Source: Pedosphaera sp. (lineage in GTDB: Bacteria; Verrucomicrobiota; Verrucomicrobiia; Limisphaerales; Pedosphaeraceae). From it: DNA of 64,000 bases. The stretch lies in contig JAQGPC010000101.1 in NCBI GenBank assembly GCA_028293285.1, positions 1-64,000 on the forward strand, in the 5' to 3' direction. Each line of letters begins with the position of its first letter. Within the stretch, counting starts at the first letter, position 1. Made by a program: the position numbers and the translations under genes. Shown piece after piece: positions 13,701 through 23,903 of the stretch. Below the pieces are notes generated by a model that searched no databases, was not told the origin of the DNA, and saw only the letters and a list, made by a program, of their open reading frames with translations.

Positions 13701-16141
13701 GCATTGTTCAATATATAATTGGCCAGATTGGTTGCGGTTGGTGTGGTCACGGCCGCGTTGAACCAGACATCAATGGTCGTCAGTGCGCTCGCGGATGGCG
13801 CATTATCGGCCATCGCGATGGAGGCACCGGGACTGACATCGTTGTTAAAAATGGTAACGGTATCGTTGTCCGCATCACCAATGGTGTAGTTCGTATTGCC
13901 GATGAGCATGAGATTGACCGTCTCCGAGGATTGCTGGAACGCGAAGTCAATCGGCTTCACAAACACCTGCGCGTTGCTCGCTCCCGCAGGAATGATCACC
14001 GAACCGGAGAGATTGGTGTAGGCCACGCCATTCGTGGCCGTTCCTCCCAAGGCGTATAATACAGTCAGGGGACTGTTCGTGCTGCCTGAGCGGGTAACGG
14101 TAAATACGCCTGGTGGAGTGGCCTTCTCAGCCGTGGTAGGCACCGTTGCCACCACGTTAACTGGCGGAATCGAAGGGCTGGAATCGTCCGATCCACCCCC
14201 GGAAGCCAGAGCCAAAATCGCATCCGGACTCAGGGCTCGATTGTAAATCCGCACATCATCCATCTTTCCCTGAAAATAACCGTCTTGTGGGAAATCGCTT
14301 CGCCCTACATAGCAATTGGTTCGTGTCACCACATTCGGCACACCGGAAAGCGTGCCGCTGGCCGCCACCGTGCCGTTCTTATAGATGACGACATTTCCAG
14401 AGGCATCCATGGTAACTGCAAAATGCTGCCATTGGTTCAGAAGCAAGGCTCCAGGCGCAGTGACTTGTCCTGCGGTAGGGAAGCCCAGGCGCACCTCAAA
14501 GGTCAGGTCGGCGCTGTTCCCGTTGCGGGAAAAAATAATGTTGTTATTATCAGGACCGTTGCCCAGGTCAATGAAGCGCGCCCAACTTGTCAGGCTCGTG
14601 GTGGGATTAGCCCACAACGCCACGGTCATTCCCTGTGAAAAGTTGCTATATCCATTTTGCAGAGCAATGTGACCGGCCTGCCCGTCAAACTTTACCGCCC
14701 GCAGAACCTTTCCGGTATAACCCGGCAACGCACCATTCACCAAAGTGCCATTCCTTCCATTGCCGGAGAAATCGCCGATTATCGTTCCAGTTGTTTCATC
14801 CAGTCGGAACCAGGTATTCAGGTTTTGCTCGACACTCACCGAGCTGCTTGGCGCAATGGGATTCAAGGCGAGATCTTTTACATTGTTCACTGTCACGGTA
14901 TAAGCAACTCCTGGAGTTACCCCGGAAACCCGCAGCAATACCGTGGCCGGGTCAGGACCAATTTGGGCGCTGGTAATCGTCACACCATTATTAATGGCAT
15001 AGTTGCTGATATTAGTGCCACTCGCCGGATCAACTCCTTCGCTGAACACCACCGAGATGTCGCTCGCGAGATTTCCCAGAATGAGCGCATCAACCAGAGT
15101 AGGAGGCGTAAAGTCAGGTTGAACAGAAATGGTTGTCGAAGCGCTGGCCGTGCCAAGGTTGTTGGTGACGGTAACACTGTAAACCGTTCCATCCTGCCCG
15201 GTGCCTACGCGTGGGATGTGATAGGTCAATAGATTGCCATTGGCTACTGCCACACCGTTGCTGAACCATTGAACAAACGCTGGCTGAGTCGCTTCGGCTG
15301 TGATGGTCAGGTCAAGCGGACGGCCATTCACAACCAGGGTGGGATTGGCCAGCGCCGTTACTGGCACTCCCAGATAATCCGTCAAAATCGCCGGCGCTTT
15401 GGCCAGTGGCGGATAGGAGGGATCATTCAAATCCACCGGGTACGGCCACAGATGGTTGCCTGAAATGATGTTTTCGTAACTCCCATCCGGCAAAGTCCAG
15501 GTCACTTCGCAATGGTCTCCTCCCACCCCCTCCTTGTGAAACATTTCAAAATAATACTTTTGGCCAGCCACCAGGGAAATCGGTGCTGATTTTTGCCCCG
15601 CATTTTGCGAAAACGTTAAGAACCCAACCGCCGTAGCATTTTCACAGATTTGAACCCGGTTGGCTGGATTTTCATTAGTGCTCAACCAGAATTGCCCCTC
15701 ATCATCACTGGCAAGTGCGAAAGTGTATTGCCCCGTTTGTGGTGCTTCAATGAACCCGCGCGTCCAGGCACCGTAATTATCAGCAAAACCTTGCGATTCT
15801 TGAAGCCCATTGGCCAGCACCTCATAAATAGTTGGCGCGCTGGGGAAACTCGGATCGCTCGTCAGATTGCTTACTGTATTTCCCGGAATGGGATCGTAAA
15901 AGAGTTTCAAGGCCACGCCAGCGCGAGCTGGCAAAGCTGCCACCGCCAACAACGACACAAGCGCCACGAAACCAGTCAAATATCTGATTGGATTACTCGC
16001 GATTTTTAGACATCCCGCTGGGGTCACGCCCTGAGGAGGCAATGCAGATGAATTTTTGCAGGTTCTTTTCATATTAGTAGAGTTGGGGGATTTTTTAAAT
16101 ACGTGGCTTGATGTTCCAAAGTAGCGGAATGTTGCTGCCAT
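10769..16141 (-). CDS. Giant secreted PA14/LamG/Calx-beta/Ig-like/lectin protein
   Basis: 1790 residues with a long export signal (hydrophobic stretch about 53-72, ending LPARA). Domains in order: PA14-like (FYDPIPGNTV...GFIEAPQTGQYTFALASDDEGQFWLST, about 80-240); Ig-like; Big/SwmB-like block (VDALILGNLASDISVVFSEGVDPAS); LamG (NTWFRLDETTGTIIGDFSGNGRNGTLVNG..., about 450-640); Calx-beta (VNVVATVPTTAEKATPPGVFTVTRSG..., about 660-770); two copies of a DTF-G/FSDGG-W module of about 170 residues separated by Ig and SwmB-like blocks; an Ig domain; and a C-terminal L-type-lectin-like fold (LNNGGGWTQNGGAVISNNVLTLIDGQGNEARSSFLN...). It is likely a surface carbohydrate-binding or adhesion protein. It starts 6 bases after the prepilin-like gene's stop, so both are probably one transcript. 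ATG 16072 (MKRTCK) is an alternative start. Confidence 0.8.
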   Translation of the reverse strand: MAATFRYFGTSSHVFKKSPNSTNMKRTCKNSSALPPQGVTPAGCLKIASNPIRYLTGFVALVSLLAVAALPARAGVALKLFYDPIPGNTVSNLTSDPSFPSAPTIYEVLANGLQESQGFADNYGAWTRGFIEAPQTGQYTFALASDDEGQFWLSTNENPANRVQICENATAVGFLTFSQNAGQKSAPISLVAGQKYYFEMFHKEGVGGDHCEVTWTLPDGSYENIISGNHLWPYPVDLNDPSYPPLAKAPAILTDYLGVPVTALANPTLVVNGRPLDLTITAEATQPAFVQWFSNGVAVANGNLLTYHIPRVGTGQDGTVYSVTVTNNLGTASASTTISVQPDFTPPTLVDALILGNLASDISVVFSEGVDPASGTNISNYAINNGVTITSAQIGPDPATVLLRVSGVTPGVAYTVTVNNVKDLALNPIAPSSSVSVEQNLNTWFRLDETTGTIIGDFSGNGRNGTLVNGALPGYTGKVLRAVKFDGQAGHIALQNGYSNFSQGMTVALWANPTTSLTSWARFIDLGNGPDNNNIIFSRNGNSADLTFEVRLGFPTAGQVTAPGALLLNQWQHFAVTMDASGNVVIYKNGTVAASGTLSGVPNVVTRTNCYVGRSDFPQDGYFQGKMDDVRIYNRALSPDAILALASGGGSDDSSPSIPPVNVVATVPTTAEKATPPGVFTVTRSGSTNSPLTVLYALGGTATNGVAYTNLSGSVIIPAGASNAQVFVKPIDFAFQQSSETVNLMLIGNTNYTIGDADNDTVTIFNNDVSPGASIAMADNAPSASALTTIDVWFNAAVTTPTATNLANYILNNAPGLSITNATLGNRGLRVVLGISGGLVPTNATLSVSGVQDPGGNSTATNIPVRVRLPAVNVLANIYHVSPTRSVDFTAMNNGLVNTTANGNGAGFDTFDGAANALLTQFGGMLYPSAVDMREIKVDLGQQFSDGGNWKAQPNVYILKNPVDSNTTRPEADTNDWIKVPANLISGSQFPATGVDPNPSPNTPIVFDLSSLPVNQRTGYGWAVGGVRGAGANGFLSFSEMRAYGFPASNSVVFVQQPTNITVVAGQRAIFSGIINTNFLAINYQWLRDGIAIDGATNAIYTTTQTTTGDNGAHFSLIASNALLSITSQVATLTITPRTTPPIVAAATIDLVGNVDVWFDEPVDPGTAQNSANYVLNDPGLAIVGISQDAYQLRVNLPVSGTPSVSNLTVTVSGVMDTFGNTLGTQTVPVFSKSWPALNLVANQYHQGRAAMLSALTNGVAQYISNANTDNVDTFGGNLGLSDFVGLIYNQPQVFGVVKVDLGHQFGDGGDWSAQPTLYLLKSPQDPSQTPPESGGGWVAVPATLVSGNIFSWEIDAPNGSAPVNSPIAFDLSHLPASQRTGYGWAVGGVPANALASAKTGIAPAAEFLSISELSSFGVPANAYTNVAGAPQILLDVAPLSQTYPSGLPLTYSVYVTGTQPITYQWKFNGTNLTDNGHISGAHSNVLTIAQVFASDAGTYQLFMTNSAGNNAGAVATLAVSRIVLNNGGGWTQNGGAVISNNVLTLIDGQGNEARSSFLNYPQYIGAFRASFTYQDVGGGGADGATFVLQNSAAGPSALGAGGGGLGYGGITPSAALEFNIYGPNTPGIALRSNGATGAPYSPTTPVNIASGDPIGVNLNYDGATLSLTLTDAVTGLSFSTNYIANLPSIVGTNTAYVGITGASGGVASTQIISNFSFVSLPRLSVQTTGTNTFVFSWLASAGGFVLQQNTAVDTASWVKVTSPVTLIDGQNQVVVPITGGNRFYRLSLP

Positions 16142-16147
16142 GAATGT

Positions 16148-16999
16148 TTATTTGGGAGATCGTTGCAATGGATCCCAAAAGTGAGAATTAACCAGGCTAA
16201 GGGAGGAGCCGCCAGCGGGATCGGCTGGCGGGTTGATGGATTGATCCTTGCGCGGTTCCGAATGGCCGTCGTTGAAGACGACTACACCAGTGCCTAAATG
16301 CCGTATGGGATCAATGCCTTCATGTTGCCCGCTGGTGCTTTTGCCCGGATCTGGGTCCATGCAGGCATTAGGCCACCAAAGACTGGAAGACCACTCATCA
16401 TATTGCACCGGGTTTTTATCCCCGATCAGCAGATTTTCACTCGGGCGCACAATGGAAGTGCGCTTGAATTGGGTTTCAAAAGTGAAATTGATCCCAACCA
16501 CCGAAATACTGCCGGAAGTATAAGGATAATGCCCTAAAAAGAATCCGTTATATCCATAACCGACATGGTCGCAATCAAAGTTCCACGCCCAAGTCACTCC
16601 ATAGGTCACATTCTTGGGCTTGAGGGCAGGACACCGAAAGAGATTGGACTGGCTTTGTGAATAACCAATGATGCAACTACCCCACCAATTCGTAAGCGCC
16701 GTCGCATGGTTGTCTGCTTCGTTCTGATTGCGATGCGCCGGAAAGAATTCACGATTATCGTCGGTATAAAGCTGCATGAATATTGAAACCTGCCGAAGGT
16801 TGTTTAGACAGGAGATACGGTTCGCCTTCGATTTGGCTCTGGCAAGCGCAGGCAAAAGCAAACCGGCTAAAATCGCTATGATCGCAATGACCACGAGCAG
16901 CTCGATCAAGGTGAATCCCCCTCGCTGGCGTTTAACCTGTAATGGTGCCTGCGGTGAACTGCACTCCTCCTTGCTCAACTTCAAACGATAGGTTTTCAT
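16148..16999 (-). CDS. Prepilin-type N-terminal cleavage/methylation domain protein (H-X9-DG type)
   Basis: About 283 residues from ATG 16999; the longer frame from 17029 adds a poor N-terminus. A type IV prepilin leader is obvious: [46 protein letters not shown], with the G/FTLIE cleavage site and methylated Phe. The rest resembles the pseudopilin-like family abundant in Planctomycetes and Verrucomicrobia, including a C-terminal H-(X)n-DGH pattern ([18 protein letters not shown]). These are processed by prepilin peptidase and anchored in the inner membrane; most have no assigned role, and a cell may hold dozens. Directly followed by the giant PA14/LamG gene. Confidence 0.88.
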
Positions 17000-18957: not shown

Positions 18958-20787
18958 TTAATGACTTGAATGCAGGACCAATGGCAATCGGTGGCTGAAG
19001 TCGTCGTAGAGCAGGACTGCCGGCTGGGTCATCACATTCTCATCTCGTGCTGCCGTTACCGCCAGCACGCAGATGCGGGGATTGACCGGGAGGGTCATTG
19101 CTTTGGTGCCGGGCGACACGTCAATGCGGTACTTAAACAGGTAGCAGTAAGTGTAAGCCTGATCGCTCCCATCGCGCTGATGGCGATGGGAACAGAACCA
19201 TGCCAACGGGTCGCGTTTGGTGAAGCCAGCGTCGATGCGTTCCAGCGGATTCTTAATGGAATAAGTTAGCTGTTCCACATTGCCTTGAAATACCGGGGTG
19301 TCCCAGCCACCAATAAAGCCACTCCAATCCTGGATACGCAGGGTGACGGTGCGCTCATCCAAAGTGAAAGTACCATCAGTGTCGCCGTAAACAGCCATCG
19401 CCAGCAGGTAAACCTGATTGAAGTCGCCGTCGGGCAACGTGAGCTTCTGTCCATCGCAGGAAACCGCATTTTGTTTCCCGTTCTCACGCGGCCCGATCTT
19501 GAAATTGATTCCTTCCGATACCACCGTGTCGCTGATCATCTCCGCCGGAATGGTCGCGCCCTGCTCATCGCAGGCACCGTCGGACTTTGCCTCATTGAAA
19601 CTGAAAACATCGAGGTTGTAAGGCAATTCCACCGACATGGAGGCGGATGGGCTTAGCGTCAAAGGTGGTTTGAGGTCACAAGCGAGTGAGCGGATTTGAT
19701 ACGGCTTGAAATCCAGCATCATCTTTTTACCGGAACTTGCCACTGGCTGGAGGACTTGTTCAACCCCGTTGATTTCGGTTACGCCTGCCAGGCCCTTGGA
19801 AGTCTGAAGCTCGACCGCCGACACGGCGAAACCATGCAATTCCTGTAGTCGCACCACGACTTTATCGCTCTCTTCCGCCAGCTTCATGGTTCGCATCGCG
19901 ATCTGGTCAGAACTGGTTCGTAATAGGCTGAAGGTTCGGCCGAGTTTGCCGGAATGCGGCACCGTGCGAAAAGCCTGCAACGGCTGGCTCAGGCGGGCAG
20001 CTTCCCAATCCGCTTTGCCGGAGCGCCAATCACCACGATGGCCCTGAAGCGCATAAGTAAATTCGTGACGTCCCCAGTCCTGGTAGCGCTGTTCGTAATA
20101 GTCACTGTTCTCACGAACACCGGGCGTATAAAGGAGAGTCAGGCGCAAGGTGTGGTCGTTCGGTTTATCGCTGCCGTATTTGCTGTCAGTCAAGACGGAG
20201 ACGCCATAATCCTTTTTGGCATCGGTCAGATCGAACCAACCATGACTCGGCACCTCGTATTTTTTCGGGTCATTATTGCCACGCTGAATTTTCCCAATCT
20301 CCCAGTTATAAGTCGCCAACGGATTGGTGACGCTCAACGGAAACTCCGCTTTCAGCGAACACGCCCTGCCCTGCCATGCCACGTGATTGGCCACTTCCAC
20401 CCGGTCACCGGCCGCCCCAGCCGCCAGGCGTATGGTTTGAATGAACACAGAATTTTCCGCCTGACGCTCCACCTCAATGGCCACCCGCACGGGGCCATGC
20501 TCGACAATACGAATTTTGGCCACTCCTCCCACGTAACTGCGCGGGGGATTGGCGCGGTCATTCCAGTCCATGTTCCACGCCGGAAAATTAGTGAGGTTCT
20601 CAGAAAGAATGGCCAGACGCGCCGGTGAGTCCAGTAATTCCCGATGAGCCGACTTGTCGAAAATGCCGGCGATGTCGCCGGCGTCATTCAGGGTAACTCG
20701 ATAACGAAGGTTCTCTAGCAAGCGGTCGTTAACCTTGAGCTCTGATGAGCGAGCTAAGCGGGTAGCCAAAATTAATGTCACATCCAA
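18958..20787 (-). pseudogene. GH38 alpha-mannosidase, C-terminal part
   Basis: The 609-residue frame carries the central and C-terminal beta-rich domains of a family 38 alpha-mannosidase: SSELKVNDRLLENLRYRVTLNDAGDIAGIFDKSAHRELL, VEVANHVAWQGRACSLKAEFPLS, SKYGSDKPNDHTLRLTLLYTPGV, DWGRHEFTYALQGHRGDW. The homologous text begins only at SSELKV; the first dozen residues and the ATG derive from an inverted-repeat element. The active-site half is in the separate frame 20838-22085. The catalytic site is not encoded here, so this piece alone cannot be active. It is best read as one gene broken in two. Confidence 0.8.
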
Positions 20788-20858
20788 TCACTAAAGGACG
20801 CGTAAACATTGATGTTATTCCGCCCCACATTTGACATTTAAAATGGCAACCTGCTTAG
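20754..20858. mobile_element. 105-bp inverted-repeat (MITE-like) element inside GH38
   Basis: Left arm CTAAGCGGGTAGCCAAAATTAATGTCA (20754-20780) and the reverse complement of the right arm (20832-20858) agree at 21 of 27 positions, around a 51-base centre. The pairing seems to continue weakly outward (gaTGAGCG / ggTGAGGCG). The element supplies the stop codon ending the GH38 N-terminal frame and the false ATG of the C-terminal frame. It encodes nothing. No clear target-site duplication was found, so the MITE label is an inference from structure and position. Confidence 0.55.
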
Positions 20859-22085
20859 CGCCTCACCGCTGCTGGCTTCATAAACCGTAAAGCCTATCGA
20901 AGGAGCCTTTGCGAGAAATAAAAGGTGTCGCTTGGCGCCTTCAGTCGAAAGCACCTGTGTTGGCACCGGGTTGCCATTCCCATCGTGAACCGTCGCACCG
21001 GTTGATCCGGCGGGCAATTCCGCTTCCACCACATCTTCACGATCAATGGAAAGTGGGTTAAAGACAATCAGCGGAATACCTTTGGTTTGGGTATTCATTG
21101 CTCGGGCCACGCCCCCCACTGCATTCTCCAGGACGGACGCAAAGCAATTCATTGCGATGATTTCGTCATTCCAGGAATATTCGTAGCACTTGGGCAAAGA
21201 AGTGCCGGCGAGGATATCGTGAAATTGCGCACCGAGGACAAGTTTCCAAGCTTGGCTGAGTTTCTCACGTGGATACGGAGTCGCCCCCAACAGATGAGCC
21301 GCCACTGACGCCTTCTCCGCCGCATCAGCGAGGTTTTCATTCATATGATTCCAACGCTTCAGGTAAGCTTGGGAGGTAAGCGTTCCTGCCAAATGTTCGG
21401 TCAGGAGCAAGTCGCCCTGGTATTTTGGCAGGCGCGCTTTTTGTGCGTCGGTGAGGTCGCAAAATAATTGGTCAGCCTTGGCTGAGACAACGCGCACCGC
21501 ACCGGTGGAGGTCGCACTTTTTTCCACCCATTGCACCGATTCCTCGGGTGGCGCTCCTCCCCGATCACCCACACCATAATATTGATAGTCAGCAAAGACG
21601 CCGCTCATGGAGCCGTTGGTGTTCAAGCGTTCACGCCATAGGGCGCTCACGCTTAAGTCCTCCTTCACCTGCGTATTGTAATCGTTCGCGTTCAGCGCGG
21701 CGATGACCGACCCGCCGTCCAGCCCGGCCCATACGCCGAGATTAAAAGGTATCCCGCTGGCGGAGCCCCAGGTGAGTTTCTGCGTGGAAAATCCGCGAAT
21801 ACCGCAATGCGCCAGCACGGAGGGGAGCGACGCCGGAAAGCCGAATGAATCAGGCAGCATGTATTCGTGGCTCTCGGTATTAAACTCCTTTTTAAAAAAC
21901 TGCCGACCATAAAGAATTTGCCGGATAAGTGATTCGGTTGAAGGAATGTCAACATCATTCTCTTCCCACGATGACCCGGCGGGAAACCAACGACCCCGGG
22001 CAACCCATTTGCGCACCTTCGCAAAATCGGCCGGGTAATATTCCTGCATCATCCGGTAACGATTGGCCCCGGTGAAATTAAAGAC
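20838..22085 (-). pseudogene. GH38 alpha-mannosidase, N-terminally truncated catalytic half
   Basis: The frame shows GH38 catalytic-domain text: MMQEYYPADFAKVRKWVARGRWFPAGSSWEENDVDIPSTESLIRQILYGRQFF, then HEYMLPDSFGFPASLPSVLAHCGIRGFSTQKL with the nucleophile-region Asp (LPDSFGF), and later ILAGTSLPKCYEYSWNDE. Homology continues upstream of the ATG at 22052 (FNFTGANRYR before MMQEYY) up to about 22085 and then stops. The first 80-100 residues of a normal GH38, with the zinc-binding H-x-D, are missing. The frame also ends early inside the inverted-repeat element. No signal peptide, start region or promoter remains. Confidence 0.8.
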
Positions 22086-22091
22086 GGCTCG

Positions 22092-23903
22092 CCAATAAAT
22101 GGTGCGACTACCTCGACGTTAACCTTGCCGGGTCTCACTGCAACGGATGCCGCTAATTACACCTGCACTGTCAGCAACGCCGGTGGGCCGACAACCAGTT
22201 CAAGTGCTGCGCTCACCGTATTGCCCTTGCCGGCCGGAGTTGCCGGTGCGGTAATCACTGATCTGCCGTTGGCTTATTACCGGCTCAATGAACCGGGCCC
22301 GGTAGTGCCGGATGTGGCCACTAATAGCGGCAGTTTGGGAACCGCAGGCGACGGCACGTATTTTCCCGGCGGATTGCATCAAGTGCCCGGTGCCTTGGCG
22401 GGTGATCCCGATACGGCTGCAGGTTATACTGGAATCGATGTCAATTCCGAGGATGGCACCGTTCCCACCATTGTTCCTTACAATGCCGCATTAAATCCCA
22501 ATGGTTCCTTTACTATTGAAACCTGGCTTAAACCGACGCTGCAGGGAAATCTCGGAAACGCGCAGGCACCACTTAACAACCAGTACGATGACGGCAGCGG
22601 CAACCGTTTTGGTTGGGACTTCTTCCAACGCGCTGCCGCCACGCAAACGCCAGATGGCAATGGCCCTGGCTACAGCTTCCGAATGTTCAACGGAACTGCC
22701 GGTTCCGGCGCGAAATTGTTCAACATCACCGGCGGCTTGTATCAGGTCGGAGCCTGGAGTCATTTGGTTGCGGTTTACGACGCCTCGGTTCCATCGGCAA
22801 CCCTCTACCTCAACGGCGTGCAAGTTGCCCAGTCCACCACACATAACGGAAGTTACGCCTCGAACCCATCGTCGCCGTTATCCATTGGCGGTTATCCCGA
22901 TGGCACCCAGAATCCGTTCATTGGATCAATGGATGAAGTTGCCTTATACACGAACGCGTTGACCGCCGCGCAGGTTCTGGACCATTACCAGAATGGCACC
23001 AACGCCGCGCGCGGCACGCCCTATCCCTCGCTGATAATTGCGGATGGCGCAGCCGAGTATCTGCGACTGGATGATCCAGCCCATAATACAGCGGTCAACA
23101 ACGGCAGCCTTGGCTCACTTGCCGATGGCACTTATTCCCACACTATCAACGGTGTGGCAGGACCACAGCCACCCACGTTCACCGGCTTTGAATCCACCAA
23201 TCTCGCAGTATCGTTTAATGGCACCAATAGTTATGTTGAATTGGAAAATCCAGCCGGGCTGAACTTCACCGGTCAAGTCACCCTCGAGGCTTGGATTCAA
23301 CCGGGCGCAGCTCAAGGCTTTGAATCCTATATCATCGCCCATGGCGGCAACGATGATTTCAGTGGCGAAACTTCGCTCCGCATCGAAAATGGCGTATATC
23401 AAATCGGATCGAATCATGGGCATGCGGCTCTCCCGGTTCCGGCGGGCGACTTGGGCGGCGGTCAATGGGTGCATTTGGTCGGCACGTATGATGGCGTCAA
23501 TTGGAATCTCTACCGCAACGGTGTGCTGAGCGCCTCCAGCGCGGACAACATTGGGCCATTCCTGGTCAATAATGCCAACTGGGCCATTGGAGCGCGTGGC
23601 AAATGGAGATACGCGTTTGGTTATCCGGATGCCGGTTTGGATCGTCAATTCAACGGCCTTATTGATGAAGTGGCTTTTTACAATTATGCATTAACGCCCA
23701 GCCGCATTCAGGCCCACTTCGCCGCGAGCGCCCAACCGCTAAAGATCAGCCGCTCGGGCGGACAGATAACTCTCACCTGGCCCGCAGGCACGCTTCAACA
23801 AGCGGACAATGTAACCGGGACATACAGCGATGTGGCTGGCGCCACTTCGCCTTATACGATATCTGCCAGCGTGGCACAAAAGTTCTACCGGATTAGATTC
23901 TAA
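22092..23903 (+). pseudogene. LamG/Ig secreted protein, N-terminally truncated
   Basis: The track starts this frame at a TTG (22125), but Ig-like text continues upstream (INGATTSTLTLPGLTATDAANYTCTVSNAGG) to about 22092, where it meets the truncated GH38 read in the opposite direction. Two LamG/concanavalin-like domains follow (about residues 50-290, DLPLAYYRLNEPGPVVPDVATNSGSLG...; and 300-540, DGAAEYLRLDDPAHNTAVNNGSLGSLADG...), then the secreted-protein tail ending QKFYRIRF. The signal peptide and first domains are lost, so no export of a functional product is expected unless an upstream fusion exists. Confidence 0.75.

Follow-up and report, generated by a model that had tools for sequence, protein, structure and literature searches.

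The window analysed here, a 64,000-nucleotide stretch of a Pedosphaera sp. draft genome, carries on its reverse strand a GH38 alpha-mannosidase gene that is split into two open reading frames. The N-terminal part (20838..22052, − strand) matches PF01074 over profile positions 55-269 and also PF09261, and the C-terminal part (18958..20787, − strand) matches PF07748 and PF17677. An initial annotation of this DNA had located the frame break at a short inverted-repeat element, and this is what we find: the N-terminal half stops at 20838, and the first start codon available to the C-terminal half is a TTG at 20787, both positions lying within the element.

The element is a 99-bp imperfect palindrome at 20757-20855, flanked by TA dinucleotides at 20755-20756 and 20856-20857; with its surroundings it reads ...GAGC-TA-AGCGGGTAGCC ... 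GGCAACCTGCT-TA-GCGCC.... These boundaries derive from the inverted-repeat arms, from the restoration of the GH38 reading frame, and from a full-length relative in another genome (both described below). The inverted repeat had previously been placed at 20754-20858; it is indeed present, and the 21/27 arm match reported for it is reproduced from those boundaries, but the 105-bp span comprises the 99-bp element, both TA copies, and the outer C and G of a CTAG. Measured from the element tips (20757 and 20855), the 27-nt terminal inverted repeats (left, 20757..20783, + strand; right, 20829..20855, − strand) match at 20 of 27 positions, while a longer pair of 31-nt arms (20753-20783 and 20829-20859) is 77% complementary around a 45-nt centre. 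When 5.8 million combinations of start and length (60-150 bp) were scanned, no second place in the window reached 20/27, all seven hits at this level being nested frames of the same palindrome. The element also has a folding z-score of −3.9 sd relative to dinucleotide shuffles (0 of 200 shuffles were equally good) and a GC content of 41%, compared to 55% in the surrounding 1 kb. In being short and devoid of a protein-coding gene, with stop codons in all six frames, and in being bounded by terminal inverted repeats that are unique in the window, it has the structure expected of a MITE.

The reading frames of the two GH38 halves are offset by 2, as calculated from the ORF coordinates, and the element together with one TA measures 101 bp, which is 2 modulo 3. 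When the flanks were joined in a script with a single TA retained, the GH38 frame became continuous and met the downstream frame exactly. Over 499 residues, the protein stretch encoded across the join (...YEASSGEALARSSELKVNDRLLENLRYRV...) is 64% identical to one homologous mannosidase (L055) and 66% identical to another (L056); the L055 alignment is ungapped at the junction, and L056 has a 2-residue gap approximately 10 residues away. A GH38 search at E 1e-60 among 30 relatives found none, and the two homologues used here came from a wider search across the order; both lie outside the host's family and within its order, and serve as stand-ins for the empty site rather than as empty alleles from a sister strain. 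Because the joined flanks align with both homologues at the junction, these genes are without the segment, and the prospect that homologous GH38 genes might carry it in frame, which had been named as the finding that would speak against an insertion, is not borne out. The duplicated target that had been proposed as a further check is likewise there, as C-TA on the left (20755..20756) and TA-G on the right (20856..20857). The restoration of the frame with one TA, together with a gapless junction against a 64% identical homologue, identifies the segment as an insertion into CTAG that duplicated the TA; such a target-site duplication, coupled to an empty site defined by homologues, is a further hallmark of a MITE.

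The element does break the mannosidase gene, as had been claimed, but the gene is also broken at its 5′ end, which the initial annotation missed. The Pfam GH38N match begins only at profile position 55, homology to L055 begins at VFNFTGANRY (window position ~22088), and the 5′ part of GH38 with its HxDxxW motif is absent at this point. A search for the missing part, with its HLDTxW motif, elsewhere in the draft genome did not find it. The Pfam profile and the homologue alignment place this second lesion, where GH38 homology ends, at 22086..22110, abutting head-to-head a LamG/Ig-type gene (22125-23903, + strand) that is divergent from the mannosidase and likewise lacks an obvious 5′ end. The junction at 22086-22110 is possibly a rearrangement or an assembly joint.

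The left arm of the element matches sequence near two contig ends in the same genome by BLAST (C135, 97% over 30 bp; C95, 91% over 32 bp). Both look like ends of a single insertion sequence, IS-A: they share 123 identical bases, and joining the two contigs of the draft at this overlap reconstructs an IS of 1,140 bp, with both TAs counted. Two overlapping frames of IS-A hit neighbouring segments of NF033545, the IS630 transposase model, and the second also matches PF13358 (DDE_3). An A7 run occurs near the frame change in the IS-A transposase (L002:1526-2558), a feature of ISs that rely on programmed frameshifting, and suggests that this transposase is produced in the same manner. The left arm of the element matches the right end of IS-A at 25 of 27 positions and its left end at 24 of 27; the right arm matches the left end at 21 of 27 and the right end at 18 of 27. 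An IS with matching ends, which the initial annotation had suggested looking for, is thus present in the same draft genome, and ends resembling those of a resident IS630-family IS are one mark of an IS630-derived MITE. A plasmid match for the IS was sought, and none was found. Because a tyrosine recombinase gene adjoins the C135 end, we also considered an integron attC site and rejected it: that end belongs to an IS630 IS, and the attC core boxes misfit by eye.

A second IS630-like IS, IS-B, with ends TAAGTAGGTAGCCAAAAGTTTTTTGACA, is represented in the genome by 11 ends (L019-L022, L025 and L027-L032), all within ~200 bases of contig ends. These fall into two internal versions, which are probably the left and right ends of IS-B, and the IS is probably present as several collapsed copies; its ends and target point to the IS630 family, to which we assign it provisionally. 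Besides those of the element, 13 ends of IS630 type were located in this genome, and C precedes TA at all of them, as is predicted by the preference of IS630 for CTAG (Tenzen & Ohtsubo 1991, from its title as cited in PMC2170065). TA is duplicated on insertion of ISY100, an IS630-family element (PMC2170065), and both full-length copies of the element described here have the arrangement C-TA-element-TA-G.

The second of these copies lies in Pedosphaera sp. RYN_627 (G005; JAQGPA010000173.1), which belongs to the same family and another genus. This relative (G005:C66:24776-24875) is 71% identical (E 6e-6), with the similarity extending into part of the core, and sits between two genes with flanks CTA...TAG; it is 100 bp long, compared to 99 bp, aligns end to end at ~70%, and has a related core, TAAAnATTGATGnTnTT. 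The host genome itself holds only one full copy, so recent multiplication is not supported. The proposal of a MITE family therefore gains a full-length relative in another genus but no second full copy in the genome for which it was made, and the family would comprise two full copies in two genera and relatives that share the ends alone. BLAST against 293 genomes of the order returned two more partial matches (L052 and L053), which we judged to be chance since a matching second arm is absent, and a GTDB-wide exact scan with 20 bases of the element end recovered the G005 record only.

Other candidate elements were seen in these two genomes. A search model built from both copies found a palindrome of ~140 bp in G005 (C11:39275-39415; L081:1496-1646), with 35-nt arms matching at 83% and CTA/TAG flanks, which is a candidate for a related IS630-type MITE with a different core. 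A pattern search of the host genome found a 369-bp segment on C13 (L089, ~15,990-16,362) that is bordered by CTA and TAG and has IS630-like ends, no transposase, and a nested palindrome inside; it is less certain because its ends match at only 18/27. A dispersed palindrome of ~157 bp, with arms containing GAGCCTGTGTGAAA, occurs twice in the host genome and once in G005 (L089:1241-1398, L100:1277-1433 and L099:1447-1603) and likely represents a separate MITE-like family.

We conclude that the element is almost certainly a 99-bp non-coding, IS630-derived, RUP-like MITE that used the TA within a CTAG of the GH38 gene as its target and was probably mobilised by an IS630-type transposase. The TA duplication, the matching IS, the segment-free GH38 homologues, and the full-length relative all support the MITE interpretation first put forward in the initial annotation. 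Under the mechanism that we propose, an IS630-type transposase acting in trans would bind the ends of the element and excise it from a donor site by cut and paste; the excised element would then be joined to the TA of CTAG, with host repair duplicating the TA. The 101 bp added to the GH38 gene shift its frame and bring in stop codons. Since the right arm agrees with the IS-A ends at no more than 18-21 of 27 positions, the transposase that moved the element may have been that of IS-A or of a close relative. With a right arm diverged to this degree and a core that matches nothing in IS-A, the element is more than an internally deleted form of the present IS-A copy.

A single copy with two IS-end-like arms could also be a decayed remnant of one IS630-type IS, generated by internal deletion, rather than one copy of a 99-bp mobile unit. 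We regard this as highly improbable: removing the element and one TA restores the frame exactly, the core contains no transposase remnant, and the G005 copy is of near-equal length with a related core, which independent deletions would not yield. Derivation from IS-A by deletion is rejected on account of the unrelated core and of that relative. The sharing of the core by two genera might further indicate that it is a selected site and that this MITE family, long-lived and low in copy number, does more than transpose, which we consider very unlikely.

Explanations that dispense with transposition fare worse still. The stable predicted fold would suit a regulatory palindrome, a terminator or a gene for a small RNA; however, the coding frame resumes exactly past the element, its ends match an IS630 IS, and an Rfam search with the element matched no family, so that we give this reading almost no credence. 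An assembly artefact with no real insertion might be suspected in a draft of 314 contigs in which IS ends cluster at contig ends, but this short element is complete and lies in the middle of a contig, its TA duplication is exact, and its removal restores the frame; such an origin is barely conceivable.

The IS630-derived, RUP-like MITE favoured here is of a kind that is already well known. As described in two papers (PMC2229807; PMC3049150), RUP of Streptococcus pneumoniae is 107 bp long, with TA ends, termini like those of IS630-Spn1, and stops in six frames; the former describes ~108 copies in its genome, in intergenic positions. Compared by anatomy from these papers, our element resembles RUP in its length of ~100 bp, its TA ends, its inverted termini like those of a resident IS630, and its six-frame stops, and differs in being single copy, intragenic, and from another phylum; we therefore describe it as RUP-like without claiming membership in RUP itself. 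The Correia/NEMIS elements of Neisseria (~107 and 155 bp), likened here by description rather than by sequence, are similar in size, TA termini, long imperfect inverted repeats, and gene interruption, whereas they have a high copy number, and the excerpts describing them name no matching resident IS. Insertion sequences of the IS630 family (IS630, ISY100) resemble the element in having terminal repeats, in duplicating TA, and in targeting CTAG, but the element lacks their transposase gene. A search of the literature on MITEs and Verrucomicrobia found no MITE from this group reported in titles or abstract openings.

For annotation, the GH38 locus is best treated as a pseudogene with two lesions, and not as two genes. 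What is new is a low-copy member of a familiar kind of element, and the case is an unusually clean one, in that an exact empty site (by homology), a TA duplication, and a partner IS occur together within one genome.
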